Shown here one piece after another: positions 4,131 through 22,689 of a DNA stretch of 64,000 nt. Every line of letters begins with the position of its first letter. Positions within the stretch are counted from its first letter, which is position 1. Origin of the DNA: Haloprofundus salilacus (GTDB lineage Archaea > Halobacteriota > Halobacteria > Halobacteriales > Haloferacaceae); assembly GCF_020150815.1 (NCBI RefSeq), contig NZ_CP083724.1:248001-312000 (forward strand), in the 5' to 3' direction. The position numbers and the translations under genes are program-made. The notes under the pieces are model-generated. The model was not told the origin of the DNA and ran no database searches. It saw nothing but the letters and a program-made list of their open reading frames with translations.

Positions 4131-5309
4131 ATGGACCAAGCGGTGTTCGATATAGCGGAGTACGACCGACGAATCGCCCGGACGAAAGCGCGGATGCGAG
4201 AGGAGGAGTTAGACGCCCTCGTCGTCAGTGATCCGGCGAACATGAACTACCTCACCGGCTACGACGGCTGGTCGTTCTACGTCCACCAGGCCGTCATACT
4301 CACTCCCGACCGGGACGAACCCATCTGGGTCGGTCGACAGATGGACGCGACCGGTGCGCGCGCGACGACGCGGCTCTCCGAGGAGAGCATCCGCCCCTAC
4401 AGCGACGACCACGTCCAGTCGCCGCGGGACCTCCACCCGATGGACTTCTTTGCGGGGGTGCTGTCAGACCTCGGCGTCGACGACGGCCGGATCGGTCTCG
4501 AAATGGACGCGTACTACTTCACCGCGAAGTCCTACACGCGCCTGCAGCAGAACCTCCCCGAAGCCGACTTCGAGGACATCACCTTACTCGTGAACTGGGT
4601 GCGCGTGAAGAAGTCCGAACAGGAACTGGAGTACATGGAGCAGGCCGCCCGCATCTCCGAGAACGCGATGCAGGCCGGTCTCGACGCCATCGGCGAGGGC
4701 GTCCCCGAGTACGAGGCGGCCGAAGCCATCTACTCGGCGCTCATCGACGGAACCGACGAGTACGGCGGCGACTACCCGGCCATCGTACCGCTGATGCCGT
4801 CGGGCGACTACACGGGCACGCCGCACCTGACGTGGACCGACCGCCCCTTCAGGAACGGCGACCCGGTGCTCATCGAACTGTCGGGCTGTCGGCACCGCTA
4901 CCACTCGCCGCTCGCGCGGACGACGTTCGTCGGCGACCCGCCCTCGGAGGTCGAGGAGACCGCCGAAATCGTCGTCGAGGGGATGGAGGCTGCGCTCGAC
5001 GCCGTCGAACCCGGCGTCACCTGCGAGTCGGTCGAGAAGGCGTGGCGCGACACCATCGCGAAGTACGGCGTCGAGAAGGCCGACCGCATCGGCTACTCGA
5101 TGGGGCTGGGCTACCCGCCGGACTGGGGCGAGCACACCGCGAGTCTTCGTCCCGGCGACGAGACGGTGCTCGAAGAGAACATGACGTTCCACACCATTCC
5201 GGGACTCTGGTTCGACGATTTCGGCGTCGAACTCAGCGAGACGTTCCGCGTCACGTCGACCGGCGCCGAACCGCTCGCCGACTTCCCGCGACGGCTGTTC
5301 ACCGCGTGA
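4131..5309 (+). CDS. doeA: Ectoine hydrolase-like M24 family protein (DoeA/EutD homologue)
   Basis: A 392-residue pita-bread-fold protein of the M24/creatinase group. Features shared with bacterial DoeA/EutD include [17 protein letters not shown] near residue 40, [14 protein letters not shown] and APHLTW-like [10 protein letters not shown] in the middle, RYHSPLAR near residue 256 in place of a metal-binding Asp pair, and [17 protein letters not shown] near residue 326. DoeA opens the ectoine ring to give N-alpha-acetyl-2,4-diaminobutyrate. Creatinase-type members lack the two-metal site of true Xaa-Pro peptidases, which fits the residues seen here. The gene is followed two bases later by glutamate dehydrogenase. 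Diaminobutyrate aminotransferase-like, BCCT and AOR genes are close by, which supports a solute-degradation role. The exact substrate (ectoine, hydroxyectoine or a relative) is inferred. Confidence 0.8.
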
Positions 5310-9840: not shown

Positions 9841-10812
9841 TCAGACCGACTCCGGTGCGAGCACTTGGTTCGTGAGTCGCTCGCCAGCGTCCAGGCGGCC
9901 GACGTTCTCGGCAACGATATCTGCGAGCCGATCCCAGTGTTTCGGCGTGTGGCCGCCCGTGTGCGGCGTGATGAGACAGTTTTCGAGGTCCCACAGCGGA
10001 TGGTCGGCTGGGAGCGGTTCGGGGTCGGTGACATCGAGCGCCGCGCCGCGTATCTTGTTCGATTGCAGCGCCGACACGAGTGCGTCGGTGTCGACGATGC
10101 CGCCCCGGGCGGTGTTGACGAGCACCGCGTCGGGTCGCATCGTCGCGAACTCTTCTTCACCCAAGAGGCCACGGGTCAGGTCGTTGAGCGGGCAGGCGAG
10201 GACGACGTACTCGCTGCGCGAGAGGGCGTCGTGAATCGCGTCCTCGTCGAAGCCGACGACCTCGTCGGTCGGTCCGCCTTTCTCGGGGGTGTAACGGATA
10301 CCGATGGTGTCGACCTCGAACCCTTGGAGGCGCTGGACGAGCGCCTGGCCGATGGAACCGAGACCGACGACTGTGACGGTGCTGTCGGTGAACTCGCCTG
10401 ACTGGAAGTGTCGCCACTCCGAGCGCTGCTTTCGCCGCCACCCCTCGTGGAGTCGGCGGGCGAAGGTGAGCATGTTTCCGATGGCCTGTTCGGCGATGCC
10501 CGGCGCGTGGATGCCGCCGGCGTTCGTGACGGCGACGCCGTGGTCCTCGAGCGCGTCCATCGGCAGGTGGTCGGTCCCGGCGAACGTGCAGGCGAACAGT
10601 TCGAGGCGCTCGGCGCAGGCGAGCAGTTCCTCGTCGATACTAATTCCGGTGACAACGCGCGCCTCCGTGACGAGTTCGCGCTCCTGTTTCGGCGTTCGAG
10701 CAAGCGCGACCGACTGGTCGGGGAGGTGTTCGCGCAGCACTTCGGCGTACGATTCCATCGAGAGTCCTTCCGTCCCCTCGCGGAGGACGACGACGTCCGG
10801 GTTCGTGGTCAT
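9841..10812 (-). CDS. D-2-hydroxyacid dehydrogenase (NAD(P)-dependent)
   Basis: A 323-residue member of the D-isomer-specific 2-hydroxyacid dehydrogenase family. The NAD-binding motif GLGSIGQALVQRL lies at about residue 150. The catalytic Arg is in NTARGGIVDTDAL at about 230, the Glu in DVTDPEPLP and the His in ITPHTGGHTPKH at about 285. It reduces 2-oxoacids or oxidises D-2-hydroxyacids. It is the first gene of a two-gene unit with the FAD/Fe-S oxidase. It is divergent from the M20 hydrolase at 11016, with a TTTGTGTAAC motif (the reverse of the island operator) in the shared intergenic region. Confidence 0.85.
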   Translation of the reverse strand: MTTNPDVVVLREGTEGLSMESYAEVLREHLPDQSVALARTPKQERELVTEARVVTGISIDEELLACAERLELFACTFAGTDHLPMDALEDHGVAVTNAGGIHAPGIAEQAIGNMLTFARRLHEGWRRKQRSEWRHFQSGEFTDSTVTVVGLGSIGQALVQRLQGFEVDTIGIRYTPEKGGPTDEVVGFDEDAIHDALSRSEYVVLACPLNDLTRGLLGEEEFATMRPDAVLVNTARGGIVDTDALVSALQSNKIRGAALDVTDPEPLPADHPLWDLENCLITPHTGGHTPKHWDRLADIVAENVGRLDAGERLTNQVLAPESV

Positions 10813-10942: not shown

Positions 10943-10960
10943 TTAGTGTTTTTGTGTAAC
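10943..10960. promoter_or_regulatory. Operator-like motif in the divergent 2-hydroxyacid dehydrogenase / M20 hydrolase promoter
   Basis: On the minus strand this reads GTTACACAAAAACAC, close to the GTACACAAAA repeats before the ectoine-hydrolase gene. It sits about midway in the 203-base gap between the divergent starts at 10812 and 11016. No other strong feature is seen in the gap. Confidence 0.35.
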
Positions 10961-11015
10961 CGCTATCAACGGAAATCGTTCACAGTTAAGTGCGCGGGCC
11001 ATGTTACAATAGCGC

Positions 11016-12296
11016 ATGGTTGAGCCGATACGAGCACGATTGAGCGAGTTGCGACGAGAGCTCCACCGGTATCCGGAACCCGGCTGGTGTGAGTTCCAGA
11101 CGACCGCGTGGCTCGTCGAGGAGCTTCGAGCCATCGGCGTCGACGAACTCGCCGTCGGACCGGAGGCGTACGACCCCGACGACCGGATGGCCGTCCCGCC
11201 CGAAGACCGCCTCGAAGCGTGGTACGACCGAGCGCGCGAGCGCGGCGTGGACGACGAACTCCTCCGGAAGATGGTGGGCGGCAACACCGGAGCCGTCGCC
11301 GTTCTCGACCGAGGCGAAGGACCGACCGTCGGTCTCCGCGTCGACATCGACGGGCTGTTCATCGAAGAGTCCGACGACGCCGACCACGCGCCGACCGCCG
11401 AGGGCTTCCGCTCGGAGACCGGCGAGACGATGCACGCCTGCGGCCACGACGCCCACATGACGTGGGGGCTCGCCACCCTCGAAGCGATAAAGGAAAGCGA
11501 GTTCGAGGGCCGACTCGTCGTGTTCTTCCAACCCGCCGAGGAGGTGTCCGGCGGCGGGTGTCCGATGGCGAAGAGCGAGTACACCGACGAACTCGACTAC
11601 CTGTTCGCCGTCCACGTCGGTCTCGACCACCCGACGGGAGAGGTCGTCGCCGGCATCGAGCGCCCGCTGGCGATGTGTCACGTCGACGTCGAGATCGAAG
11701 GCACCTCCGCACACGCCGGTAAAGCGCCGCAGGACGGAGACAACGCCATTCAGGCGCTCGGAACCGCCATCCAGAACGTCTACGGCATTCCGCGCCACGC
11801 CGACGGGATGACCCGCGTCAACGTCGGGCGGGTCGAGGGCGGCACGGCGAGCAACATCATCGCCGAGGACGTCGGCGCCGTCGCCGAGGCCCGCGGCGAG
11901 ACGACGGCGCTGATGGAGTACGCGAAGGAAGAGCTCACGAGGACGTTCGAGACGGCCGCCGAGATGCACGGCTGCGAGGCCAACGTCGACGTGGTGAGCG
12001 AGAGTCCGCGCGCCGACAGCGACCCCGAACTCGTCGACGTCGTCGCCGACGTCGCCCGCGGCGTTGAGGGCGTCGACACCGTCGTTCCCACCGCAGACTT
12101 CGGCGCGAGCGAGGACGCGACGTTCCTCATGCAGCGCGTCCAACGCGAGGGCGGCTTCGCGTCGTACCTCATCGTCGGCACCGACCACCCGACGAGCCAC
12201 CACACGCCGACGTTCGACGTCGACGAGCGCAGCCTCAAAACCGGCGTCGAACTGCTCACGGGCGCGATTCTCGCCGTCGCGGAGGACGGACCGTGA
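11016..12296 (+). CDS. M20 family amidohydrolase/deacylase (AbgB/HmrA-like)
   Basis: A 426-residue zinc amidohydrolase of the M20D group. Metal and catalytic motifs are RVDIDGL, MHACGHDAHMTWG (about residues 140-150), FFQPAEEVSGGG (about 170) and the dimerisation-domain signature EIEGTSAHAGKAPQDG (about 230). The C-terminal ligand His lies in TDHPTSHHTPTF. M20D enzymes remove acyl or aminoacyl groups from N-acylated amino acids and aminobenzoyl-glutamate. There is no DoeB-type deacetylase in the window, so this enzyme is a candidate for removing acetate from N-acetyl-diaminobutyrate; that role is inference. Its stop overlaps the GTG of the next gene by four bases (GTGA), indicating translational coupling. 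Confidence 0.85.
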   Translation: MVEPIRARLSELRRELHRYPEPGWCEFQTTAWLVEELRAIGVDELAVGPEAYDPDDRMAVPPEDRLEAWYDRARERGVDDELLRKMVGGNTGAVAVLDRGEGPTVGLRVDIDGLFIEESDDADHAPTAEGFRSETGETMHACGHDAHMTWGLATLEAIKESEFEGRLVVFFQPAEEVSGGGCPMAKSEYTDELDYLFAVHVGLDHPTGEVVAGIERPLAMCHVDVEIEGTSAHAGKAPQDGDNAIQALGTAIQNVYGIPRHADGMTRVNVGRVEGGTASNIIAEDVGAVAEARGETTALMEYAKEELTRTFETAAEMHGCEANVDVVSESPRADSDPELVDVVADVARGVEGVDTVVPTADFGASEDATFLMQRVQREGGFASYLIVGTDHPTSHHTPTFDVDERSLKTGVELLTGAILAVAEDGP

Positions 12297-13636
12297 GTTC
12301 GCCGTCCGGGGGGTCCGGTGAGTCCGAGGGGTCCGGTGAGTCCGAGGGGTCCGGATTGTCCGACGAGATACCCTCCGCCGACGAGGTCGTCACCACCGCT
12401 GACGTCGAGGCCGCCGCGGAGCGCCTCGCGGACGTGGTCCACCGGACGCCGCTCGACGGGTCGACGACGTTCGCCGAGCGAAGCGGCGCCGCCGCGGTCG
12501 GACTCAAACTGGAGAACGTCCAGCGGACGGGGTCGTTCAAGATTCGCGGCGCGTACAACGCGATGGCCCAACTCCCCGAGGAGGCGCGCGAGCGCGGCGT
12601 CGTCGCCGCAAGCGCCGGAAACCACGCGCAGGGAGTCGCCCTCGCTGGACAGTTGCTCAAGATTGACGCCACCATCGTCGTCCCCGAGGTGACACCGGCG
12701 GCGAAAATCGAGGCAACTCGCGGCTACGGCGCCGACGTCGTTGTCGAAGGACGCGACTACGAACGCTCGTACGAACACGCGCTGGAACTCGCCGACGAGG
12801 AGAGCCGAGAGTTCGTCCACCCGTTCGACGACGAGCGCGTCATCGCCGGACAGGGGACCGTCGGTCTCGAACTGGTCGAGCAAGACCCGGACGTCGACAC
12901 CGTGCTCGTCTCGATAGGCGGGGGCGGTCTCGTTTCGGGCATCGCGACGGCGGTGAAAGCGCACGACCCCGATATCCGCGTCGTCGGCGTCCAACCCGAG
13001 GGGGCGGCCCACGCCAAGCCCTCGCTCGAACGCGACAAGATTCACGTGCTCTCGGAGGTCGACACCGTCGCCGAGGGCATCGCCGACGCCCGACTGCTGG
13101 TGAAGACGTTCGCTGTCGTCCGCGAGCGCGTCGACGACGTCGTCGCAGTGAGCGACGCCGACCTCGCAGTCGCGACAGCGCTGCTCGCGGAGCGGGCGAA
13201 GACGGTCGCCGAGGCAGCCGGCGCGGCACCAGTCGCAGCGCTGCTCTCGGGAGCAGTCGACGTCAAGGGAGAGCGCGTCGCGGCCGTCGTCTCCGGTGGG
13301 AACACGAACCTCACCGACCACGCCGAACTGAGTCGGGTCGGTCTCGAACGCCTCGGTCGCTACACCGAGGCCCGCCTCGAACTCGCGGGATGGCCGACAG
13401 TTCTCGGTGACGTGACGGAGACGGTCGAGGAACAGGGGGCGGAACTCAACGCGCTCGAACGCGTTCGACCGATGGCGGTCGACGACCTCAACCGGACACC
13501 GGTGCGAGTCGGCGTCGAGGGGAGCGGTCCCGACCACCTCCGCGACGTGTTAGCCGCGCTCGACGCGCTCGACGACGTGAGCGTCGTGAGGCACAGCCTC
13601 GACGCGGAGGTGCGGAGAGAGAACGAGTATAGCTGA
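12293..13636 (+). CDS. ilvA: Threonine ammonia-lyase-type PLP enzyme with C-terminal ACT-like domain
   Basis: A 447-residue fold-type II PLP enzyme. The lysine that binds PLP is in TGSFKIRGAYNAM (about residue 80), the substrate loop is ASAGNHAQG, and the phosphate-binding Gly-rich loop is VSIGGGGLVSG (about 207). Residues about 355-447 form an ACT-like domain. Relatives deaminate threonine or serine. The EutB protein of hydroxyectoine degradation is a distant relative, so a hydroxy-amino-acid intermediate is possible. The GTG start overlaps the preceding stop. The first 25 residues are Gly/Ser/Glu-rich, encoded by two perfect 18-base tandem repeats at 12313-12348. RidA, which removes the reactive enamine products of such enzymes, is encoded at 18090. 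Confidence 0.83.
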   Translation: MSSPSGGSGESEGSGESEGSGLSDEIPSADEVVTTADVEAAAERLADVVHRTPLDGSTTFAERSGAAAVGLKLENVQRTGSFKIRGAYNAMAQLPEEARERGVVAASAGNHAQGVALAGQLLKIDATIVVPEVTPAAKIEATRGYGADVVVEGRDYERSYEHALELADEESREFVHPFDDERVIAGQGTVGLELVEQDPDVDTVLVSIGGGGLVSGIATAVKAHDPDIRVVGVQPEGAAHAKPSLERDKIHVLSEVDTVAEGIADARLLVKTFAVVRERVDDVVAVSDADLAVATALLAERAKTVAEAAGAAPVAALLSGAVDVKGERVAAVVSGGNTNLTDHAELSRVGLERLGRYTEARLELAGWPTVLGDVTETVEEQGAELNALERVRPMAVDDLNRTPVRVGVEGSGPDHLRDVLAALDALDDVSVVRHSLDAEVRRENEYS

Positions 13637-13724: not shown

Positions 13725-15077
13725 TCAGGCGAGCGCCTTTGAGCCGACGTCGTGCATCGCCTCGTTGAAGATGCCGATTCCCAGTTCGATCTCCCGCTCG
13801 GTTGAGTCTAACGGCGGGAGCAGACGAATCGTCTTCTTCCCGCAGCCGAGGGTGAGCAGGCCGCGTTCCAGAGCCGCCTGGACGACGGCGTCGCGGCGGT
13901 CCTTGGTATCGAACTCGACGGCCAGCATCAGCCCTTTCCCGCGCACGTCGTCGACGTGGTCGGGCGCGCCGTCGCGCAGGAGTTCCTTGGCCTGTCGGCC
14001 GCGTTCGGTGGCGTTGTCGAGGAGGTCGTACTCTTCGATGGCCTCCAGCGTGAACGCCCCCTGCATCGAGGCGAGGAGGTCGCCGCCGCCGAACGTCGAT
14101 CCGAGGCGGTTCTTCTCCTCGGGGAAGATCTCCTTCTTCGAGATGGTCGCGCCGACGCGCAACGCCTTCGCGCTCGCGATGACGTCGGGTTCGATGGGGT
14201 AGTGGTCGGACGCCCACATCTCTCCCGTCCGGCCGACGCCCGACTGAATCTCGTCGACGACGAGCGGGATATCGTACGTCTCGCAGATGTCGCCCACCTC
14301 GGCGACGAACGACTCGTTCGGGAAGCGGTAGCCGCCGACGCCCTGAATCGGTTCGAGGATGGCGAAGGCGATTTCGTCGGGGTTGACGTGTCCGCCCTCG
14401 GGTTCGAGCACGTTTCGGAACTGTGAGCCGTCCTCGCGGGCGAACCCACAGTTGCAGTTGTCCGCGTCCGCGCAGTCGCAGAACGGTATCGTCTTGACGC
14501 CCGCGATCTCGGGGTAGTGGCGGGTGTACACCTCCTTCGAGAAGGTGAGCGACAGCGTGCCGAGGGTTCGACCGTGGAAACTTCCCTCGAACGCGTAGGC
14601 GTACTTCGCGGCCGGTTTGTGGTCGTGAGTTATCTTTATCGCGTTCTCGACGGCTTCCGCGCCGGAGTTCGAGAGGAACACGGTGTCCATCCCGTAGTGA
14701 CTCGATACGTCGACGAGTCTCTCCATCAGGTGGCTCGCCCCGGGGAACTCGGTGGTCTCGGGGTCCGGACCCGCGCCGAAGTACATGTCCTGACCCGCTA
14801 TCTTCATCGGCTCGACGAGGTCGAACTCACGGAGTTTCGAGACGATTTTCTCGTTGTTGTAGCCGAGCGGAGCCGCACCGATGTGACACGTGAAGTCGAG
14901 GAGGACGTTGCCGTCGACGTCGGTGACGAACGGGCCGTCGGCGTCGGCGGTCACGTCCCAGACGAACTCGTGAGAGTACTCGCTCGGTGCCGCGTGTTCC
15001 GTGTGGAACTCGATCCAGTCGCGCGCGTTGGGTCCGGGAAGCGCAGCTGTGTCGGGCTCCGCGGTATCCCTATCCAT
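13725..15077 (-). CDS. Class III aminotransferase (4-aminobutyrate/ornithine/diamino acid type)
   Basis: A 450-residue PLP aminotransferase of the acetylornithine/4-aminobutyrate family. Recognisable parts are FLSNSGAEAVENAIKI (about residue 135), EGSFHGRTLG, the Asp-containing VVDEIQSGVGRTGEMWA (about 275), and the TFGGGDLLASMQGA region near 325. The usual Schiff-base lysine should fall in IASAKALRVGATISKKE. A short Cys-rich insert (FCDCADADNCNCGF, about residue 205) is unusual and could be structural. The start at ATG 15077 lies inside a palindrome (15074-15096). The longer frame to 15158 is not supported. It probably transaminates an omega-amino or diamino acid of the island pathway. Confidence 0.8.
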   Translation of the reverse strand: MDRDTAEPDTAALPGPNARDWIEFHTEHAAPSEYSHEFVWDVTADADGPFVTDVDGNVLLDFTCHIGAAPLGYNNEKIVSKLREFDLVEPMKIAGQDMYFGAGPDPETTEFPGASHLMERLVDVSSHYGMDTVFLSNSGAEAVENAIKITHDHKPAAKYAYAFEGSFHGRTLGTLSLTFSKEVYTRHYPEIAGVKTIPFCDCADADNCNCGFAREDGSQFRNVLEPEGGHVNPDEIAFAILEPIQGVGGYRFPNESFVAEVGDICETYDIPLVVDEIQSGVGRTGEMWASDHYPIEPDVIASAKALRVGATISKKEIFPEEKNRLGSTFGGGDLLASMQGAFTLEAIEEYDLLDNATERGRQAKELLRDGAPDHVDDVRGKGLMLAVEFDTKDRRDAVVQAALERGLLTLGCGKKTIRLLPPLDSTEREIELGIGIFNEAMHDVGSKALA

Positions 15078-15096
15078 ACACAAAGAACGTGTATGG
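15074..15096. promoter_or_regulatory. Perfect palindromic operator over the aminotransferase start codon
   Basis: CCATACAC (15074-15081) and GTGTATGG (15089-15096) are perfect inverted repeats separated by seven bases. The start codon of the aminotransferase (minus strand, 15077-15075) lies in one arm. The same GTGTATGG-with-ATG arrangement is found at 17344-17361. A bound regulator would block transcription start or ribosome entry if the message is leaderless. Confidence 0.5.
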
Positions 15097-15196
15097 CATA
15101 CATTAAAACTTGTTATGCTGTGGCCACGTCGTCGACGCTGTTCGGTCGCGAACGCCACGAAAACCGTTCGAAAGAAGTCTATTCGACGACCGCCGG

Positions 15197-16837
15197 TCAG
15201 TCGTCGTCGGCGGGCTTTTTGCGCGTCGACGGCTGGTCAACTTCGTTCGGGGACCCGAAGAGCGTCGTCCGCTCTTGGAGCACTACGCGGCCGTAGTTCG
15301 AGCCGAACTCCCTGACGAGTCCGAGCAGCGCGAGCAGGCAGACGAACGCGAACGGCGCACCCGTGATGATGACCGCCGACTGGAGTGCGTTGACGCCACC
15401 GAGCGTCATCAGAATCGCGGCGAACATCCCGAGGACGACGCCCCAGAAGATCCGGTTGATGTTCGAGGGGCTGGCCTTCCCGCCGGTCGTCATCATCGAC
15501 ACCGCGAGCGTCGAGGAGTCGGCAGACGTGATGAAGAACGTGGTCACTAGCAGCATGAACGCGATCATGAACACCGAGCCGAAGGGGAACGCCTCGAACA
15601 GCGCGTAACCCGCGACGGCCTCCCCGTGCGTGCCGATGGGGCCGAGCAGGTCCGTGACGCCGTTGTGCTGGGCCCAGACGGCCGACCCGCCGACGACGGT
15701 GAACCACGGGATGGTCGCCGCCGACGTGGCGATGATGCCGGTGAACGCGACCTCGCGGACGGTCCGACCCTTCGAGATGCGCGCGATGAACAGGCCCGCG
15801 AACGGCGACCACGAGAGCGCCCACGCCCAGTAGAAGACGGTCCAGGAGTTCATCCACTCCGTGGCAGCGGGGTTGCCCGCACCCATCGCGCCGGCGCCGG
15901 TGAAGAGACTCATCGAGACGAAGTCGGTGATCATTCCGCCGACCGCCTGCGTCCCGAGCAGCACGAGGAACACCGACGGACCGACGATGAACGTCGCCAC
16001 CGTTATAATCCCGAACAGGATCATGTTGAAGTTCGAGAGCCGACGGATGCCTTTGTCGACCCCGAGCACCATCGACAGCGTGAACAGCAGCGTCATCGCC
16101 GTCACGACGAGGATGACGCCGGTGTTCCCGAGATCGATACCCCACTGGTAGTCGAGCCCGGTGATGAACTGACTGCCGATGAACCCCAGCGACGTCGCCA
16201 CGCCGCCGATGGTCGCGAAGACGGCGACAATGTCGACGGTCTTCGCCGCGACGCCGTCGAGGTTGTCCTTACCGAGGAGCGGCGCGAGCGCCGAGGAGAC
16301 CCGCAGCGGAATGTGCTCGTAGTTGTAGGTGAAGTAGCCGATGGCGATGCCCATTATCGTGAAGACCGCGAGCTGCGGGAGCGCCCAGTGGAACAACGTC
16401 TGCTGGACCGCGACTACCATTGCCTCCGGCGACCCGGCCGACACGTCGAACAGCGGCGACGGGTTGTCGTAGTAGAACAGCGCCTCGGTCGGCCCCCAGA
16501 AGACGACGCCCGCGGCGAACCCGGCTGAGTACAGCATCGCGAAGAACGAAAAGAAGCTGTACTCCGGCGGTTCGTCGCCGAGTGTGGCGTTCCCCCATGG
16601 CCCGACGATCAGGAACAGCAGGAAGACGACGACGAGGAAGACGATCACCAACAGCGCCCAGTTGAGATACTGGTTCATCACGCCGTTGGCGGTGTCGATG
16701 CCCCACTGGACGAGTTCCGGGTTGATGAAGTACAGCGCGATCAGGCCGACTGTCAGGGTCGCGCCGAAGAGGAACACCACCGGGTCGAGTTCCTCGCGGA
16801 AGCGACCGACCGCCCCTTTGTCGCTGGACGTCCCCAT
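15197..16837 (-). CDS. BCCT family betaine/carnitine/choline/ectoine transporter
   Basis: A 546-residue integral membrane protein with about 12 hydrophobic segments between residues 22 and 525. It carries the family's Trp-rich signature: the FWGPTEALFYY region early, then AWALSWSPFAGLFIARISKGRTVREV in the middle and FFITSADSSTLAVSMMTTGG later. BCCT carriers take up quaternary ammonium compounds and ectoines by sodium or proton symport. It is preceded by a strong Shine-Dalgarno sequence (GGAGGTGGTG) 5 bases before ATG 16837, unlike most genes here, so it has a 5' leader. A TATA-like CTTAAAT lies on the minus strand near 17040. Placement among ectoine-degradation-like genes supports uptake of the pathway substrate. 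Confidence 0.9.
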   Translation of the reverse strand: MGTSSDKGAVGRFREELDPVVFLFGATLTVGLIALYFINPELVQWGIDTANGVMNQYLNWALLVIVFLVVVFLLFLIVGPWGNATLGDEPPEYSFFSFFAMLYSAGFAAGVVFWGPTEALFYYDNPSPLFDVSAGSPEAMVVAVQQTLFHWALPQLAVFTIMGIAIGYFTYNYEHIPLRVSSALAPLLGKDNLDGVAAKTVDIVAVFATIGGVATSLGFIGSQFITGLDYQWGIDLGNTGVILVVTAMTLLFTLSMVLGVDKGIRRLSNFNMILFGIITVATFIVGPSVFLVLLGTQAVGGMITDFVSMSLFTGAGAMGAGNPAATEWMNSWTVFYWAWALSWSPFAGLFIARISKGRTVREVAFTGIIATSAATIPWFTVVGGSAVWAQHNGVTDLLGPIGTHGEAVAGYALFEAFPFGSVFMIAFMLLVTTFFITSADSSTLAVSMMTTGGKASPSNINRIFWGVVLGMFAAILMTLGGVNALQSAVIITGAPFAFVCLLALLGLVREFGSNYGRVVLQERTTLFGSPNEVDQPSTRKKPADDD

Positions 16838-17358
16838 CTGTCACCACCTCCTAACCGAACGGCGGTCCGACCGCTCGGACGCCGTCGCCCGTTCGAACCG
16901 GGCGTTGTCTTGTCGTTTCGCACCCTGTGCGCCGTCTCGTTCGCTGCGTGGATTGAATCTCGAATGCATGAGCCTGTCCCCTGTCAACGCTCACTGTGCT
17001 ATGCGGTGTCGCACGTCACGGTTATCAACAATTACACATTTAAGTATTACGGTTACTGAATCCCCTGGATACGATATTCGTTTATTACGCTCTAATCGTA
17101 ACGACGGTTGTACTCGAACAAACGCTCAATCCGGAGAGTAGGAGAGACGTGATCCAGTTCGCCGCCCGAATCCACAGGCGACGTATCAAGTGAGCGAGGC
17201 CGCGCATCGTGCTTGGAACCGCGACGAGAGACGGAAGTCGACGAGAACTAGTACACAAATTTTGAGCGAGTCGTTCGGCCACGAACGTTCCACATCTGGT
17301 GTATACCGGGGCAGTAGTAGTCGTAATGCTTACTTTCGTCAGTATACACAAACTGTGT
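16838..17358. other. Intergenic region with promoters for the transporter and the 17359 gene
   Basis: No convincing gene is present in these 521 bases. The minus strand carries the transporter's Shine-Dalgarno sequence at 16843-16852 and a probable TATA box near 17040. The plus strand carries a GTACACAAAT motif at 17251-17260 and, at its right end, the palindrome that overlaps the next start codon. Confidence 0.5.
17251..17260 (+). promoter_or_regulatory. GTACACAAAT operator-like motif
   Basis: A nine-of-ten match to the GTACACAAAA repeats upstream of the ectoine-hydrolase gene. It is about 108 bases upstream of the ATG at 17359 and 414 bases upstream of the transporter start. Confidence 0.35.
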
Positions 17359-17360
17359 AT
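17344..17360. promoter_or_regulatory. Perfect palindromic operator over the start codon of the 17359 gene
   Basis: ATACACA-AAC-TGTGTAT is a perfect 7+3+7 inverted repeat whose right arm runs into ATG 17359. It resembles the palindrome at 15074-15096 and places the start codon in the same position within the arm, which suggests the same regulator acts at both. Confidence 0.5.
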
Positions 17361-18030
17361 GGAGAACACCCCTGACGACACGAACGCCCCGGACGACGCG
17401 GAAGCGCGCGACGGTCTCGCCTACTCGGCGGACCGCGGACGCGGCATCCTCACCCCCAGCGACAGAGAGTACCTCCTCGGTCGGAAGACCGACTACACCG
17501 AACATTCGAAGAAGCAGAAACGCAATCGCATCCGCCGTCGCCTGCGAAACGCCATCCTCGACTTCACCATCCTCTTCGAACATCTCGAGGACCGTGACCG
17601 AGAGACCGTGTTCAACCCCGACGACGATGCCCGTGAGGCGTACACGCAGGGCATCACCGACATGCTCGCGTTCCTCCACCTGGGGACGATGGGCTACTAC
17701 ACACCGTTCAAAGATATGCTCGCGCAGGGCGTCAACAAGGCCGAGCAGGAGCTCGCAGGCTCCGATTATCGGATGGTGACCGTCGACTTCAACGTCGAAC
17801 CGGTCGGCCGAATCGACGTCGACGAGGTCGTCGACAAACTGGAGTACGGGGAGTTCGCCGACCTGACCGACGAGGAACTGCGCGCGTTCACCCGACTGCT
17901 CGCCGACTCTGAGGAGTTCTCCGCGGCGGACGTCCGTTCGGAGATGAAAGCGCAGATGACGGAGTTCATCGAGCGGATCGACACCGCGACGGAGCGGCGC
18001 GACCGACGTCTCGAAGAGTTAAGCGACTGA
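17359..18030 (+). CDS. Conserved haloarchaeal protein of unknown function
   Basis: A 223-residue acidic soluble protein that I recognise only as a haloarchaeal-type family. Residues about 25-80 contain RGILTPSDREYLLG followed by a basic patch (HSKKQKRNRIRRRLRNAI) and an LDFTILFEHL helix, which could bind nucleic acid. The remainder is mainly helical (RIDVDEVVDKLEYGEF; ELRAFTRLLADSEEFSA) and ends in a charged coiled-coil-like stretch. There are no membrane segments. The start at ATG 17359 sits inside an operator-like palindrome shared with an aminotransferase of the island, so it is probably co-regulated and could itself be a regulator. Function is not assigned. Confidence 0.7.
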   Translation: MENTPDDTNAPDDAEARDGLAYSADRGRGILTPSDREYLLGRKTDYTEHSKKQKRNRIRRRLRNAILDFTILFEHLEDRDRETVFNPDDDAREAYTQGITDMLAFLHLGTMGYYTPFKDMLAQGVNKAEQELAGSDYRMVTVDFNVEPVGRIDVDEVVDKLEYGEFADLTDEELRAFTRLLADSEEFSAADVRSEMKAQMTEFIERIDTATERRDRRLEELSD

Positions 18031-18089: not shown

Positions 18090-18476
18090 TCAGCCGAGAT
18101 ACGCGACGGCGTCCATCTCGACGCGGACTTCCCCCGGGAGGCGCGAGACCTCGACACAGACGCGCGCCGGCGGGTCGCCGGGGAACTTCGCGCCGTACGC
18201 CTCGTTGACGCGGTCGTAGTCGTCGAGGTCCGTGAGGTAGACGGTCACCTTGACGACGTCGTCGAGGCCGTCACCTCCCGCCTCTTCGACAACGGCGGCG
18301 ATACTGTCCAGCACTCGCTCGGTCTGCGCCTGCACGTCGCCCGCGATCTCCTCGTGCGTCTCCGGGTCGACGGGACCGTAACCGGAGACGTAGACCGTGT
18401 CCCCGGCGGTGACGCCCTGCGAGTAGGGGTTGTCGTTGCGCGGTGCGTCGTCCGTGATGATTCGTTCTGTCGGCAT
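18090..18476 (-). CDS. ridA: RidA family enamine/imine deaminase
   Basis: A 128-residue YjgF/YER057c/UK114 protein. It shows the family pattern: NPYSQGVTAGDTVYVSG near residue 20, LDDVVKVTVYLTDLDDY near 80, and PARVCVEVSRLPGEVRVEMDAVA at the end with the substrate-binding Arg. RidA hydrolyses reactive 2-aminoacrylate and related enamines made by PLP enzymes. That fits the threonine-dehydratase-type enzyme at 12293 and the aminotransferases nearby. ATG 18476 is well supported; the longer open frame to 18806 is antisense to the next gene's 3' end. It lies 76 bases downstream of the aminotransferase gene on the same strand. Confidence 0.88.
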   Translation of the reverse strand: MPTERIITDDAPRNDNPYSQGVTAGDTVYVSGYGPVDPETHEEIAGDVQAQTERVLDSIAAVVEEAGGDGLDDVVKVTVYLTDLDDYDRVNEAYGAKFPGDPPARVCVEVSRLPGEVRVEMDAVAYLG

Positions 18477-18552: not shown

Positions 18553-19932
18553 TCAGACGCGCTGTCTCTCGGTCGTGACAGCCTCGATAGCGTCGACGAT
18601 GACGTCGAGCGCCGTCTCGGCCAACTCCTCCGTGAGCACGAGCGGCGGGAGGAGCCGGAGGACGTTACCGTGGCGGCCGGCTTTCCAGACGAGCACGCCG
18701 TGCTCGAAGCAGTAGTCCTGTACGGCGTCGGCCGCGTCGTCGTCGGGGCGTCCCTGCTCGTCGACGAGGGCTGCGCCGATGAACAGTCCTTTCCCTCGGA
18801 CGTCACCGACGCGGGGGTTGCTCTCGCCGACTTCTTCGAGGCGCGTCCGGATGTAGTCGCCGAGGTCGCGCGCGTGCGCCAGCAGGTCGTGCTCCTGGAT
18901 GTACTCGATGGCGCGGGTGCCCGCCCGCATGGCTACGACGTGGCCCCGGTAGGTTCCGGCGTGATCGCCGGAGCCCCACGTGTCGAGGTCCTCGTGGTAC
19001 ATCGTCGCCGACAGCGGGAAGCCGGTGCCGCCAAGCGCCTTCGCCGACGTCATCACGTCGGGCGTCACGTCGTACCACTCGCTCGCCCACCACTGTCCGG
19101 AGCGACCGAGACCGCTCTGTATCTCGTCGAACACCAGCGGAACATCGTTGTCGTCGGCGATGTCGCGCAGTCCCTTCAGGAACCCTTTCGGGGGTGCGAC
19201 GACGCCGCCTTCGCCCTGAATCGGTTCGACGAAGATGCCGGCCGGGTTCGCGAGGCCGCCGTAGGGGTCCTCGAAGATGGCCTGCACCTCTTCGAGCGCG
19301 TGGTCGACGGACTCCTGCGGACCCTTCCCCTGCTCGAACGGGTTCGGGTACGGCGCGTGAACCACGTCGGCGAGCAGCGGCGTGTAGTTCCCCTTGAACC
19401 CCTTGTTCCCGGTGAGGCTCATCGCACCGCTGGTCGCGCCGTGGTACGCGCCGCGGAACGCGACGAGGCCCGTCCCGCCGGTGTTGTACTTCGCGAGTTT
19501 GATGGACGCCTCGATAGCGTCGCTTCCGGTTGGTCCGCCGAAGACGACTCGACTGTTTCCGCTCAGGCTCCCGGGCGCGATCTCGTCGAGTTTCTCGATG
19601 AGTTCGAGGCGAGCCTCGGTGGGAAAGTCGACGGTGTGGACGAGTTTGTCCGCCTGTTCGTGGACGGCCTCCAACACGTAGGGGTTCGCGTGGCCGACGT
19701 TCAACACGCCGATGCCGGCGAACATGTCGATGAACGTGTTGCCGTCGACGTCCCGGACGGTCGCACCCTTCCCCTCCTCGAAGGCGACGGGAATGTCCTC
19801 GGGATACGCCACCGCGCTGCTGTCGATCTCGCGCTGCTTCTCCAACAGCGCGCGGGAGTTCGGTCCAGGAACGGAATCTACGTTCGGTGCGTCGTCGTAG
19901 TGGAGCTCGGCTATCGGTGGCCCTGCGGTCAT
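18553..19932 (-). CDS. Class III aminotransferase, diaminobutyrate aminotransferase-like
   Basis: About 459 residues. The motif [19 protein letters not shown] (about residue 115) and [14 protein letters not shown] resemble diaminobutyrate--2-oxoglutarate aminotransferases (EctB/DoeD/Dat group) rather than acetylornithine enzymes. The PLP Asp lies in [18 protein letters not shown] (about 255) and the Schiff-base Lys in [17 protein letters not shown] (about 285). DoeD converts diaminobutyrate to aspartate semialdehyde in ectoine breakdown, which would fit the hydrolase at 4131. A TATA-like box (ATATTTAT, minus strand, 19955-19965) suits a leaderless start at 19932; ATG 19944 is an alternative four codons longer. 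Confidence 0.8.
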
Positions 19933-19953
19933 GGTCGACACCATGAGGAACAG

Positions 19954-20025: not shown

Positions 20026-20124
20026 CGAGAGAGCTATTCTCTCTCGTCACTGAGAGAATCAAAGATTCGCGAGCTCTGCGAACGCTTTGCGTTCGCCCGA
20101 TCACGAGACGGAGGAGTCGTCTCG
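20026..20124 (+). ncRNA. Candidate structured leader RNA of the AOR gene
   Basis: Three perfect stem-loops follow one another: CGAGAGAG/CTCTCTCG (20026-20046, 8 bp, 5-base loop), GCGAACGC/GCGTTCGC (20078-20096, 8 bp, 3-base loop) and CGAGACG/CGTCTCG (20104-20124, 7 bp). TTCGC at 20066-20070 could pair with GCGAA at 20078-20082 instead of the second stem, giving a mutually exclusive fold. The array lies 65-165 bases before the AOR start codon. Whether it is an RNA regulator, a set of protein-binding sites or an attenuator is not known. Confidence 0.35.
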
Positions 20125-20189
20125 AACGACCCCTTTCTGTAGACAATATGCGTAACCACTTTGATGGTGCGCGAACGACCGTCACGGTA

Positions 20190-21851
20190 ATGTTAAGCAC
20201 AGTTGGACCGCTCCTGACGGTCGATGTCGGTGCCAGGGAGAGCCGAACCGAAGCGATCGACGAGATTCTCGAGTCCTACATCGGCGGGCGAGGCGTCGCG
20301 ACGAGGCTCGCACACGAGCGGATTCCCTTCGATGCCGACCCGCTCGGCTCGGAGAACCGCCTGTTCTTCACAACCGGACCGATGCAGGCGTCGAATATGA
20401 GCTTCACGGGACGGATGAACTGCACCGGCGTCTCGCCGCTCACCGACGGCCTGCTCTCGTCGAACGCCGGCGGGTTTATGTCGCGGAACTTCGCCGACGC
20501 GGGATACGCCGCGGTCGAACTCGTCGGCGCGAGCGACGAACTGCTCGCCGTTCACGTCACCGACGAGGGCGTCGAGTTCAAGACCGTGCCGGAACTAGAA
20601 GGGGCGACCGTCTCCGAGGTCGGCACGTACATGGACGACGAACACGGTCTCGGCATTGAGAACCTCGCTGTCGCCGGTCCCGCGGGCGAGAACCGCGTCC
20701 GCTTCGCCTCCATCATGACTAGCGAGGAGCGTGCGTTCGGCCGCGGCGGTCTCGGAGCGGTGATGGGTTCGAAGAACGTGAAGGCGGTGAGCTTCAGCGG
20801 CGACTCGGCCCCCGACATCCAGATTCCGTCGGGGCAGATGGATATCCACCGCGAGGCCGCGACCGACGACCACATCATGAAGCGGCAGGGGACGGTCGCG
20901 GTGATGGACCTCGCCAACGAGATCGGCGGACTGCCCTCGTACTACTTCTCCGAGCAACAGTTCGAGGGCGTCGAAGGGATAAACGGCGACGCCGTCGAGT
21001 CGAAGAAATACAAGAAGGGCACCTGCTCGGCGTGCGCGTTCGCGTGTAAACTCCCGACGAGAGACGAGGAACGCGGCGTCGAGACGGAGGGTCCCGAGTT
21101 CGAGGTGGCGATGGCGTTCGGGTCGAACGCCGGCGTCGACGACATCGTCGACGTGATGAAGTCGAACAAGTTGTGCGACGAACTCGGGTTGGACGCTATC
21201 TCCGCGGGGAACACTATCGCCGCGTACCTCGCAAGCGAAGACGAGTTCGGTAATCGAGAGCTCATCTGGGACCTCGTCGAGAAGATAGCCCGCCGCGAAG
21301 GCGTCGGCGACGACCTCGCCGAAGGAATCGACCGAGCCCACGACGAACTCGGCGTGGAAAACTGGACGGTGAAGGGGTTGGACTTCGCCGCCCATGAGGG
21401 GCGCGTCCTCCACGGACAGGGGCTGTCGTACGCGGTGGCGAACCGCGGCGCGGACCACATGTACGCCGTCTTCTACTCGCAGGAGTACCCCCTCGTCCCC
21501 GAGGACGACGCGATGGACCCGACCGGACTCGACGGTAAACCCCGGCGACTCATCGAAAAGGAGAACCAGATGGCGCTCAACGACAGCGGCGTCGTCTGCA
21601 AGTTCTCCCGCGACTACATGACGCCCGAGCGGTACGAGATGCTGTTCGGCGCGTCGTTCGAGGAACTCCTCGACGTCGGGAACCGAGTCGTCACGCTCGA
21701 ACGCCACTTCAACAACCAGCGCGGTTTCGACCGCTCTGATGACGCGCTCCCGTACGACATCCCTGGCTTCGAGGCGGCGCTCGACGAGTACTACGAACTA
21801 CGCGGGTGGACCGAGGAGGGCGTGGTTCCCGACGACGCGGTGTCCGCATAA
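20190..21851 (+). CDS. aor: Tungsten-containing aldehyde:ferredoxin oxidoreductase
   Basis: A 553-residue AOR-family enzyme. The N-terminal domain holds the tungstopterin-contact motifs (YIGGRGVATRLAHE; FFTTGPMQASNMSFTGRMN) and the FGRGGLGAVMGSKNVKAV signature near residue 185. The 4Fe-4S ligands are Cys279, Cys282 and Cys286 (CSACAFACK) and Cys470 (SGVVCKFS). It oxidises aldehydes to carboxylates with ferredoxin as acceptor. It is divergent from the diaminobutyrate aminotransferase-like gene, so aspartate semialdehyde is a plausible substrate and AOR could replace the NAD-dependent DoeC. ATG 20190 was chosen because homology begins there; the long upstream frame overlaps hairpins. Confidence 0.88.
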   Translation: MLSTVGPLLTVDVGARESRTEAIDEILESYIGGRGVATRLAHERIPFDADPLGSENRLFFTTGPMQASNMSFTGRMNCTGVSPLTDGLLSSNAGGFMSRNFADAGYAAVELVGASDELLAVHVTDEGVEFKTVPELEGATVSEVGTYMDDEHGLGIENLAVAGPAGENRVRFASIMTSEERAFGRGGLGAVMGSKNVKAVSFSGDSAPDIQIPSGQMDIHREAATDDHIMKRQGTVAVMDLANEIGGLPSYYFSEQQFEGVEGINGDAVESKKYKKGTCSACAFACKLPTRDEERGVETEGPEFEVAMAFGSNAGVDDIVDVMKSNKLCDELGLDAISAGNTIAAYLASEDEFGNRELIWDLVEKIARREGVGDDLAEGIDRAHDELGVENWTVKGLDFAAHEGRVLHGQGLSYAVANRGADHMYAVFYSQEYPLVPEDDAMDPTGLDGKPRRLIEKENQMALNDSGVVCKFSRDYMTPERYEMLFGASFEELLDVGNRVVTLERHFNNQRGFDRSDDALPYDIPGFEAALDEYYELRGWTEEGVVPDDAVSA

Positions 21852-21891: not shown

Positions 21892-22689
21892 TCAGATGCG
21901 TTCGCCGCCACCCGACGGTGCACCGTACATCTCGGTCACCTCCCGCTCGAACGTCTCGACCGCCTTCGTCAGCAGTTCGACTTGCGCCGCCTTCGTCTCG
22001 TCGTCGATGGCGTAGGCCGGCCCGGAGAGGTTCAACGAACCGTACACCTCCCCGCGAGGAGATTTCACCGCCTTGCCGACGGCCCAGAGCCCTTCGATAG
22101 CCTCACCGTCGCTCTCGGCGTACCCCTGCTCGCGAACCTGCTGGAGTTCATCGAACAGTTTCTCCTCAGTGGAAATCGAGCGCTCCGTAGTCGCCGGAAG
22201 CCCCCATCGGTCGACTATCTCCTGCACCCGCTCTCGGGGGTACTCGGCGACGATCGCCTTTCCCGAAGCCGTCGTGTGGATGTGGAAGGGACTACCGTCG
22301 ACGAGGAACTGCGGAAAGTTCGTGAAGTCGAGGTCGCCGTACAGTGAGACGATCCGACCGCCCTCCTCGACAGCGAAGTCCGCCTCCAGCGCTGACTCCT
22401 GCGAGAGGTGAGCGATCGCCTCCTCCGCGATGCGCCGGTACTCCTTTCGGGTCCTGACGTAATCGCCGAGGTGACAGAACTTCGCGCCGAGGTGGTACCG
22501 GTTGTCCTCGCTGACGACGTATCCGTACTCCGCAAGCGTATTGAGGTGGCTGTGGACGGTACTCTTTGCGAGACCCGAGGCCTCCGCGAGGTCGGCCAGA
22601 CTCGCCCCCTCGAGTTCGAGGATGTGCTCGACCAACTGCAGCGAGAGTGCGGTCGTTTTGAGCACCCGTCCTGTGTCCCGTTTCGTCAT
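21892..22689 (-). CDS. IclR family transcriptional regulator
   Basis: A 265-residue regulator. Residues about 10-70 form a winged helix (SLADLAEASGLAKSTVHSHLNTL). Residues about 85-255 form the IclR effector domain (PFHIHTTASGKAIVAEYPRERV; EGLWAVGKAVKSPRGEVYGSLNLSGPAYAI). IclR proteins bind catabolic intermediates and repress or activate degradation operons. It is convergent with the AOR gene and is the only classical one-component regulator in the island. It is the best candidate to bind the GTACACAAA-type sites; a copy (GTACACACAA) lies about 180 bases upstream of its own start at 22870. Confidence 0.88.
   Translation of the reverse strand: MTKRDTGRVLKTTALSLQLVEHILELEGASLADLAEASGLAKSTVHSHLNTLAEYGYVVSEDNRYHLGAKFCHLGDYVRTRKEYRRIAEEAIAHLSQESALEADFAVEEGGRIVSLYGDLDFTNFPQFLVDGSPFHIHTTASGKAIVAEYPRERVQEIVDRWGLPATTERSISTEEKLFDELQQVREQGYAESDGEAIEGLWAVGKAVKSPRGEVYGSLNLSGPAYAIDDETKAAQVELLTKAVETFEREVTEMYGAPSGGGERI

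Follow-up and report, generated by a model that had tools for sequence, protein, structure and literature searches.

The closest published design that we found to the arrangement described here is the acuR-acuI-dddL operon of Rhodobacter sphaeroides, a leaderless, autoregulated catabolic operon whose transcript starts from the AUG of the regulator gene; the AcuR operator, an 8-bp inverted repeat with a 6-bp spacer, overlaps the promoter, and acrylate as co-inducer lifts the repression (PMC3017554). Haloarchaeal TrmB recognizes a partly palindromic site of 19 bp and, when bound downstream of the TATA box, inhibits recruitment of the polymerase (PMC10817205). Bacterial genes for uptake and catabolism of ectoine are repressed by EnuR, a regulator of the MocR/GabR type, with N-alpha-acetyldiaminobutyrate (N-alpha-ADABA) and diaminobutyrate (DABA) as inducers (PMC5924519). 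Here we describe two palindromes which lie over start codons in a stretch of 64,000 nucleotides of the Haloprofundus salilacus genome (contig NZ_CP083724.1, positions 248,001 to 312,000; the whole stretch is called the window). One belongs to a gene for a class III aminotransferase (AT1), the other to a gene for a protein of 223 amino acids (DUF) without a Pfam or NCBIfam family above cut-off. To judge from the sequences, both palindromes are probably copies of one operator which, at two promoters that are probably leaderless, covers the start codon together with the expected point of transcription initiation; its likely binder would be DUF itself, as a dimer which blocks the polymerase and is released by a metabolite, a reading in which we have reasonable, although not high, confidence.

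The system proposed for DUF resembles the acuR operon in being leaderless, autoregulated and catabolic; it differs in that acuR has a bacterial -10/-35 promoter, a protein of the TetR family and one operon, whereas two separate starts are concerned here. The TrmB sites are likewise partly palindromic, and for TrmB the position with respect to the TATA box decides the effect. However, TrmB is sugar-sensing and its motif occurs at 67 promoter places of 58 genes (PMC10817205), compared to one or two matches of TATA element plus site per genome, in 79 genomes, in our case; also, the TrmB family possesses a winged-helix domain (PF01978), and no such domain was found in DUF. EnuR corresponds to the role proposed for DUF as a repressor of ectoine genes which is released by pathway intermediates, but it is a GntR/MocR protein with an aminotransferase domain binding pyridoxal phosphate (PLP), and profile searches found neither domain type in DUF. 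A survey from 2026 described clusters of putative EutD with aminotransferase and BCCT genes in Halobacteria, which were called provisional; the portions of the survey available to us name no regulator for them (PMC13188858). Among the titles and abstracts listed from the open-licence part of PubMed Central (haloarchaeal ectoine regulators, leaderless-start regulation), no publication on the DUF family or on these sites was found. If the reading is correct, an archaeal ectoine pathway that is itself provisional would gain the regulator which it lacks, an unnamed family could be tested as transcription factors with operators readable from their own start codons, and a clean case would be available in which a single DNA word is operator, transcription start and start codon.

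The elements concerned are, in window coordinates:
13725..15077, minus strand: AT1, class III aminotransferase (PF00202; profile search), covered by site 1
15074-15096, minus strand: site 1, extended palindrome
15075..15094, minus strand: site 1, TACAC-GTTCTTT-GTGTA with the G of ATG and one flanking base; centre 15085, i.e., -8 from the A of the AT1 start codon (15077)
15102..15108, minus strand: TATA-like element TTTTAAT of the AT1 promoter, -31 to -25, conserved in 84 distinct orthologous promoters
17330..17333, plus strand: TATA-like element TTAC of the DUF promoter, -29 to -26
17343..17361, plus strand: site 2, TATAC-ACAAACT-GTGTA with the TG of the start codon; centre 17351, i.e., -8 from A17359
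17359..18030, plus strand: DUF, 223 amino acids, no match above cut-off in Pfam or NCBIfam; proposed to regulate its own gene by binding DNA

Palindromes overlapping ATG at both loci had been reported in an earlier, sequence-only reading of the window, and both are present. On the minus strand the site is CCATACAC-N7-GTGTATGG (15074-15096, ATG at 15077-15075); on the plus strand ATACAC-N5-GTGTAT extends over 17344-17360, with ATG at 17359-17361. They are genuine and occur far more often than chance would allow: the window contains ATACAC-N3..15-GTGTAT two times, versus a mean of 0.00 in 100 shuffles. In the genome of 3.73 Mb, spacers of 3 to 12 bases yielded three places, namely the two window sites and one with a 10-base spacer, and spacers of 3 to 9 bases yielded the two window sites only.

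The unequal spacers, 5 and 7 bases, had been considered odd for one dimeric regulator. Aligned orthologous promoters showed that this is an illusion of register, and two different spacers as a biological feature were ruled out. Site 2 has a second register, TATAC-N7-GTGTA at 17343-17359; its letters, TATACACA, permit ATACAC with a 5-base spacer, whereas relatives keep TATAC with a 7-base spacer. In 84 distinct AT1 promoters (AT1 identity at least 72%, starts from protein alignment) the left arm matched in 4.67 of 5 bases on average at -16 (7-base spacer) versus 3.30 at -14 (5-base spacer). DUF starts were set at GTRT/ATG (the stroke precedes the start codon) where this existed, so that the count for DUF rests on 43 of 104 distinct promoters; the means were 4.63 at -16 and 3.12 at -14. 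Since the left arm is best at -16 in both sets, the two window sites share one geometry, i.e., one site TAYAC-N7-GTRTA, with its centre 8 bases before the A of ATG and downstream of the TATA element. The right half GTRT/ATG was present in 80 of 84 AT1 promoters and full TAYAC-N7-GTRT in 65; the full form was found in 34 of the 43 DUF promoters having GTRT/ATG. The AT1 consensus (A of ATG = 0) consists of TTTTAAT at -31 to -25, followed by (G/A)TAYACA-N5-TGTGTATG, and conservation at the TATA-like positions -30 to -25 is 89-100% among the orthologues. As would be expected of an operator of this kind, the dyad-symmetric site is fixed in place relative to both TATA box and start codon. The earlier suggestion of a repressor over leaderless starts has survived in part: the promoters look leaderless, with a conserved TATA-like element and a regulator-type site over the expected start which recurs across genera and families, and the notion of two spacers had to be abandoned.

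The combination of TATA element, site and start codon is highly specific. When 292 genomes of the class were searched for the pattern TTAM-N9-TAYAC-N7-GTRTATG, 82 matches were obtained, distributed over 79 genomes, as compared to 0 of 292 for the control read backwards; 64 matches lay exactly on AT1 starts, 15 on DUF starts and three elsewhere (relative to the AT1 and DUF matches listed). One of these three, in G014, belongs to an AT1 gene truncated where the contig ends, which brings the figure to 80 of 82. With a TATA distance of N13-20 the same pattern gave just two overlapping matches in one of 119 genomes; the correct distance is 9. In 134 loci (1.89 Mb), TAYAC-N7-GTRTA was present 139 times, at 76 AT1 starts, at 44 DUF starts, 12 times near M20 amidohydrolase genes and seven times elsewhere, and the control with each arm reversed once; these loci had been picked for holding DUF or AT1 and include some genomes twice, whereas distinct promoters were used for the spacing test.

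The distribution of DUF follows that of the sites. Of the 292 genomes, 93 have an orthologue (E < 1e-60), and so have 78 of the 79 site genomes. Fifteen DUF genomes are without the strict pattern; one (G159) was left out of the promoter reading, and of the other 14, ten show the complete site, at AT1 or at DUF, together with a TATA element which differs in distance or sequence, and four a site with one or two mismatches. The cluster genes travel together, and hence genomes which keep the pathway but not DUF should provide a better test. Six genomes, among the matches listed, contain AT1 of at least 65% identity and a nearby DoeA-like gene without a DUF orthologue (G006, G323, G148, G302, G305 and G178); none has the full AT1 site, the site bases retained being 3, 6, 6, 6, 3 and 9 of 10; the 9 are those of G178, and in the other five the site is degraded. 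In G323 (L248) the TATA-like box of AT1 is kept and the site is not. The absence of DUF in these genomes rests on a genome-wide orthologue search; G148 and G302 possess a paralogue with 35% identity. In the AT1 tree, five of the six, representing four cases (G006, G323, G148/G302 and G305), are nested among DUF-bearing rows; the tree was midpoint-rooted, has long branches for L260 (G305) and L259 (G178), and DUF-bearing here means DUF in the fetched locus. Below 65% identity the test covered the AT1 paralogue in the H. salilacus genome itself (62-63% identical, L256), which has no site. The clear losses of the AT1 site coincide with absence of a DUF orthologue.

A second AT1 copy with 80% identity, which adjoins a BCCT gene, was noted in another genome (L266; G007 C5:110000-124000); it has 9 of 10 site bases, and DUF is located elsewhere in that genome.

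The relatives of DUF suggest what kind of protein it may be. Family members occur in 115 of 194 haloarchaeal genomes searched, the ectoine members included, and share the conserved core RGxLTPADRxYL ... RIRxR ... LDF ... DRxxvF (19 paralogues aligned, 27-42% identical to DUF). Six of 20 members matched one PHROGs family of unknown function (best E 0.005), and two scans of viral contigs revealed no DUF relatives. For each paralogue the nearest ATG upstream of the core was chosen blind to dyads, and pairing was scored between six-base arms 7 bases apart with centres from -20 to -2; 86 loci gave 76 rows, following removal of one without a usable start (L330) and of nine second fetches with identical upstream DNA. 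At centre -8, 3.80 of 6 pairs were complementary, compared to 1.17-2.39 at the other 18 centres, and 32 of the 76 promoters had at least 5 pairs. Collapsing at 70% identity left 54 rows with 3.20 pairs (13 with at least 5); 95 control genes (other ATG-start genes from the same loci, longest frame) showed 1.54 pairs and none with at least 5. Over half of the paralogues are without a strong dyad at -8; no other centre competes. Own arms paired better than arms re-paired between genes: in the 54 collapsed promoters 0 of 20000 shuffles did equally well, and 11 of 20000 did so when only the three inner pairs of 48 distinct arm pairs were considered. The dyad sequence varies by subfamily; examples are ATAATC-N7-GATT/AT, ATACTC or ATACCC with GAGT or GGGT, and GTAYAC-N7-GTRT/AT in the ectoine member. 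In five loci (L318, L324, L328, L329 and L334) a second operator copy is situated 42-43 bp upstream, about four helical turns away. A palindrome of its own at the same place over its own start, throughout the family, is the pattern which autoregulatory DNA-binding proteins would leave, and the best reading of these data is that DUF belongs to an undescribed family of such proteins. We incline, with somewhat less assurance than for the reading of the two window sites, to the wider proposal that DUF founds a haloarchaea-wide family of regulators without a known DNA-binding fold, whose subfamilies would recognize different half-sites, often RTAnnC, with 7-bp spacing at centre -8 of their own start and shut off their own leaderless transcription, some members having in addition a second copy 42-43 bp upstream; this member would in addition control ectoine catabolism.

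The subfamily with ATAATC-N7-GATTAT is located between genes for an MMPL-type transporter and a class I aminoacyl-tRNA synthetase (L271, L281); other family members adjoin genes for PCNA (L269) or the proteasome (L267).

The sites lie within the following gene set (profile searches), much of which stays together in many genera:
4143..5309, plus strand: M24 peptidase-like protein with DoeA/EutD-like ectoine hydrolase domain (TIGR02993, 472 bits over 386 residues, below the cut-off of 613)
9841..10812, minus strand: D-2-hydroxyacid dehydrogenase
10966..10982, plus strand: degenerate operator counterpart TCAAC-N7-GTTCA, 3 mismatches, with a half-site GTGTA at 10954-10958
11016..12296, plus strand: M20 amidohydrolase, DoeB2-like (101 bits, below the family cut-off of 550)
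12293..13636, plus strand: PALP, threonine ammonia-lyase/EutB-like PLP enzyme
15197..16837, minus strand: BCCT transporter, between the two sites
18090..18473, minus strand: RidA-family protein
18553..19944, minus strand: AT2, second class III aminotransferase, diaminobutyrate transaminase-like
20094..21851, plus strand: protein of the aldehyde ferredoxin oxidoreductase (AOR) family
21892..22689, minus strand: IclR-family regulator, BhcR-like (107 bits, below cut-off)

Since a DoeA/EutD-like gene is present, the cluster is probably one for ectoine catabolism. Ten of the 12 sites near M20 genes, all strict matches from other genera, closely precede the TATA element of the M20-PALP gene, where the window has the degenerate copy at 10966..10982; the remaining two (L087, L245) are at another M20 gene of 60% identity. 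A third half-site is also present upstream of this TATA element in many loci. Binding at these sites could serve for activation, or for the mere exclusion of other factors. Loss of the M20 site in genomes without DUF says little, since L082, L090, L264 and the window, all with DUF, are also without a good site.

The following observations weigh against DUF as the binder or against an operator restricted to these genes. DUF shows no DNA-binding domain above the Pfam cut-off, the best match being Phage_int_SAM_4 with 14.5 bits versus 27; its 19 paralogues gave only scattered Pfam matches of one or two members (best E 0.0004, RPN13_C). Sequence searches of the PDB yielded nothing convincing, troponin C (E 0.007, paralogue profile) being taken as chance. 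The full-length structure model is unusable (predicted local distance difference test, pLDDT, 50). An N-terminal fragment of 94 residues reached a pLDDT of 78.9 and a predicted template modelling score of 0.65, with a short helix, a helix of 36 residues and a third helix; Foldseek found no match to it in the PDB at E <= 0.001, and the best VIA-align scores (Z 6.2, GARP-SNARE and syntaxin chains) are within the range of common arrangements. TAYAC-N7-GTRTA without TATA element and ATG occurs at eight places in the H. salilacus genome, of which six are not AT1 or DUF (backward control, one). Among four same-genus genomes which keep the genes, the AT1 site is full in all, as the earlier proposal would have it, but the DUF site is full in one only; the other three keep the right half and four of five left-arm bases. 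Haloferax AT1 promoters retain three of five left-arm bases despite the presence of DUF. In 61 of the 104 distinct DUF promoters, many with DUF following M20 in the same direction, GTRT/ATG is missing at the start, and autoregulation through this site is therefore not universal. The co-occurrence of DUF and sites stems in part from linkage of all cluster genes, and the counts, like the Fisher values computed from them, ignore relatedness. Finally, G178 retains 9 of 10 AT1 site bases without DUF, and the nearest tree neighbours of G006 keep just 9 and 8 of 10.

On the proposal which we prefer, a DUF dimer would bind the operator, cover the starts of its own gene and of AT1, and block RNA polymerase until a pathway metabolite releases it; these steps we infer from the sequences. 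The same operators over leaderless starts could be bound by the neighbouring IclR protein or by an unlinked transcription factor, which we regard as unlikely, although it is the alternative to be taken most seriously. The IclR gene is found 3.9 kb downstream of DUF in the window, several genera have one close to the cluster, and its product has a proper DNA-binding domain, which DUF has not. Yet IclR orthologues (E < 1e-80) were found in 16 of the 292 genomes, a set which includes 15 of the 79 with sites, and G006 contains, in the same cluster, an IclR protein of 75% identity and no site at AT1; this BhcR-like protein, being too rare and distributed differently from the sites, was rejected as the binder. 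An unlinked factor, on the other hand, would leave unexplained why the dyads of DUF paralogues share a position and differ in sequence. The composition of core promoters together with common descent, without any dedicated regulator, would account for sites inside the core promoters of AT1 and DUF and for their presence in AT1 genes, which are orthologous; this appears very improbable in view of the 139 occurrences versus one in the loci chosen for DUF or AT1, of the TATA-like box kept without a site in G323, and of the lack of a dyad at -8 in the control genes.

Control of translation by an RNA hairpin of the two arms, hiding the start codon, is equally hard to credit. The AT of ATG is inside the right arm, and a leader of at least 17 nucleotides could fold in this way, but the TATA-like element, conserved at -31 to -25, puts the start near ATG and would thus leave the left arm outside the transcript; in Haloferax volcanii, 72% of the protein-coding transcripts lack a leader (PMC4983044); and the ten strict M20-PALP sites are upstream of the TATA element of that gene. 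These same ten sites would fit an activator or dual regulator, which represses at the start sites and activates where it binds before the TATA box; haloarchaeal TrmB provides a precedent, repressing from downstream and activating from upstream (PMC10817205). Activation is difficult to reconcile with a site over the AT1 and DUF starts, however, and opposite control within one pathway would be odd; we consider this version improbable, only slightly behind binding by IclR or an unlinked factor.

Some further occurrences of the motif should be mentioned. None of the six additional places in the H. salilacus genome was counted as a target. Two of them were inspected: C1:1642875 ends in GTGTATG, and C1:810287 (L098, 1501-1630) has a perfect TACAC-N7-GTGTATG over the ATG of a reading frame which seems to resemble acetoacetate decarboxylase and is interrupted by a stop codon in frame as well as by a shift of frame. 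In L080 (7708) and L186 (3565), which probably are the same genome, a perfect TATACGAAAATCGTATA palindrome with operator-like spacing is found about 200 bp upstream of an IclR gene. In the window itself, a near-palindromic element, TACACAAATTTTGAG, is located at 17249-17266, about 105 bp upstream of DUF, and may be a second site; it reads TATACAGATTCTGTG in L006 and recurs loosely in three genomes of the same genus (L005, L006, L008).

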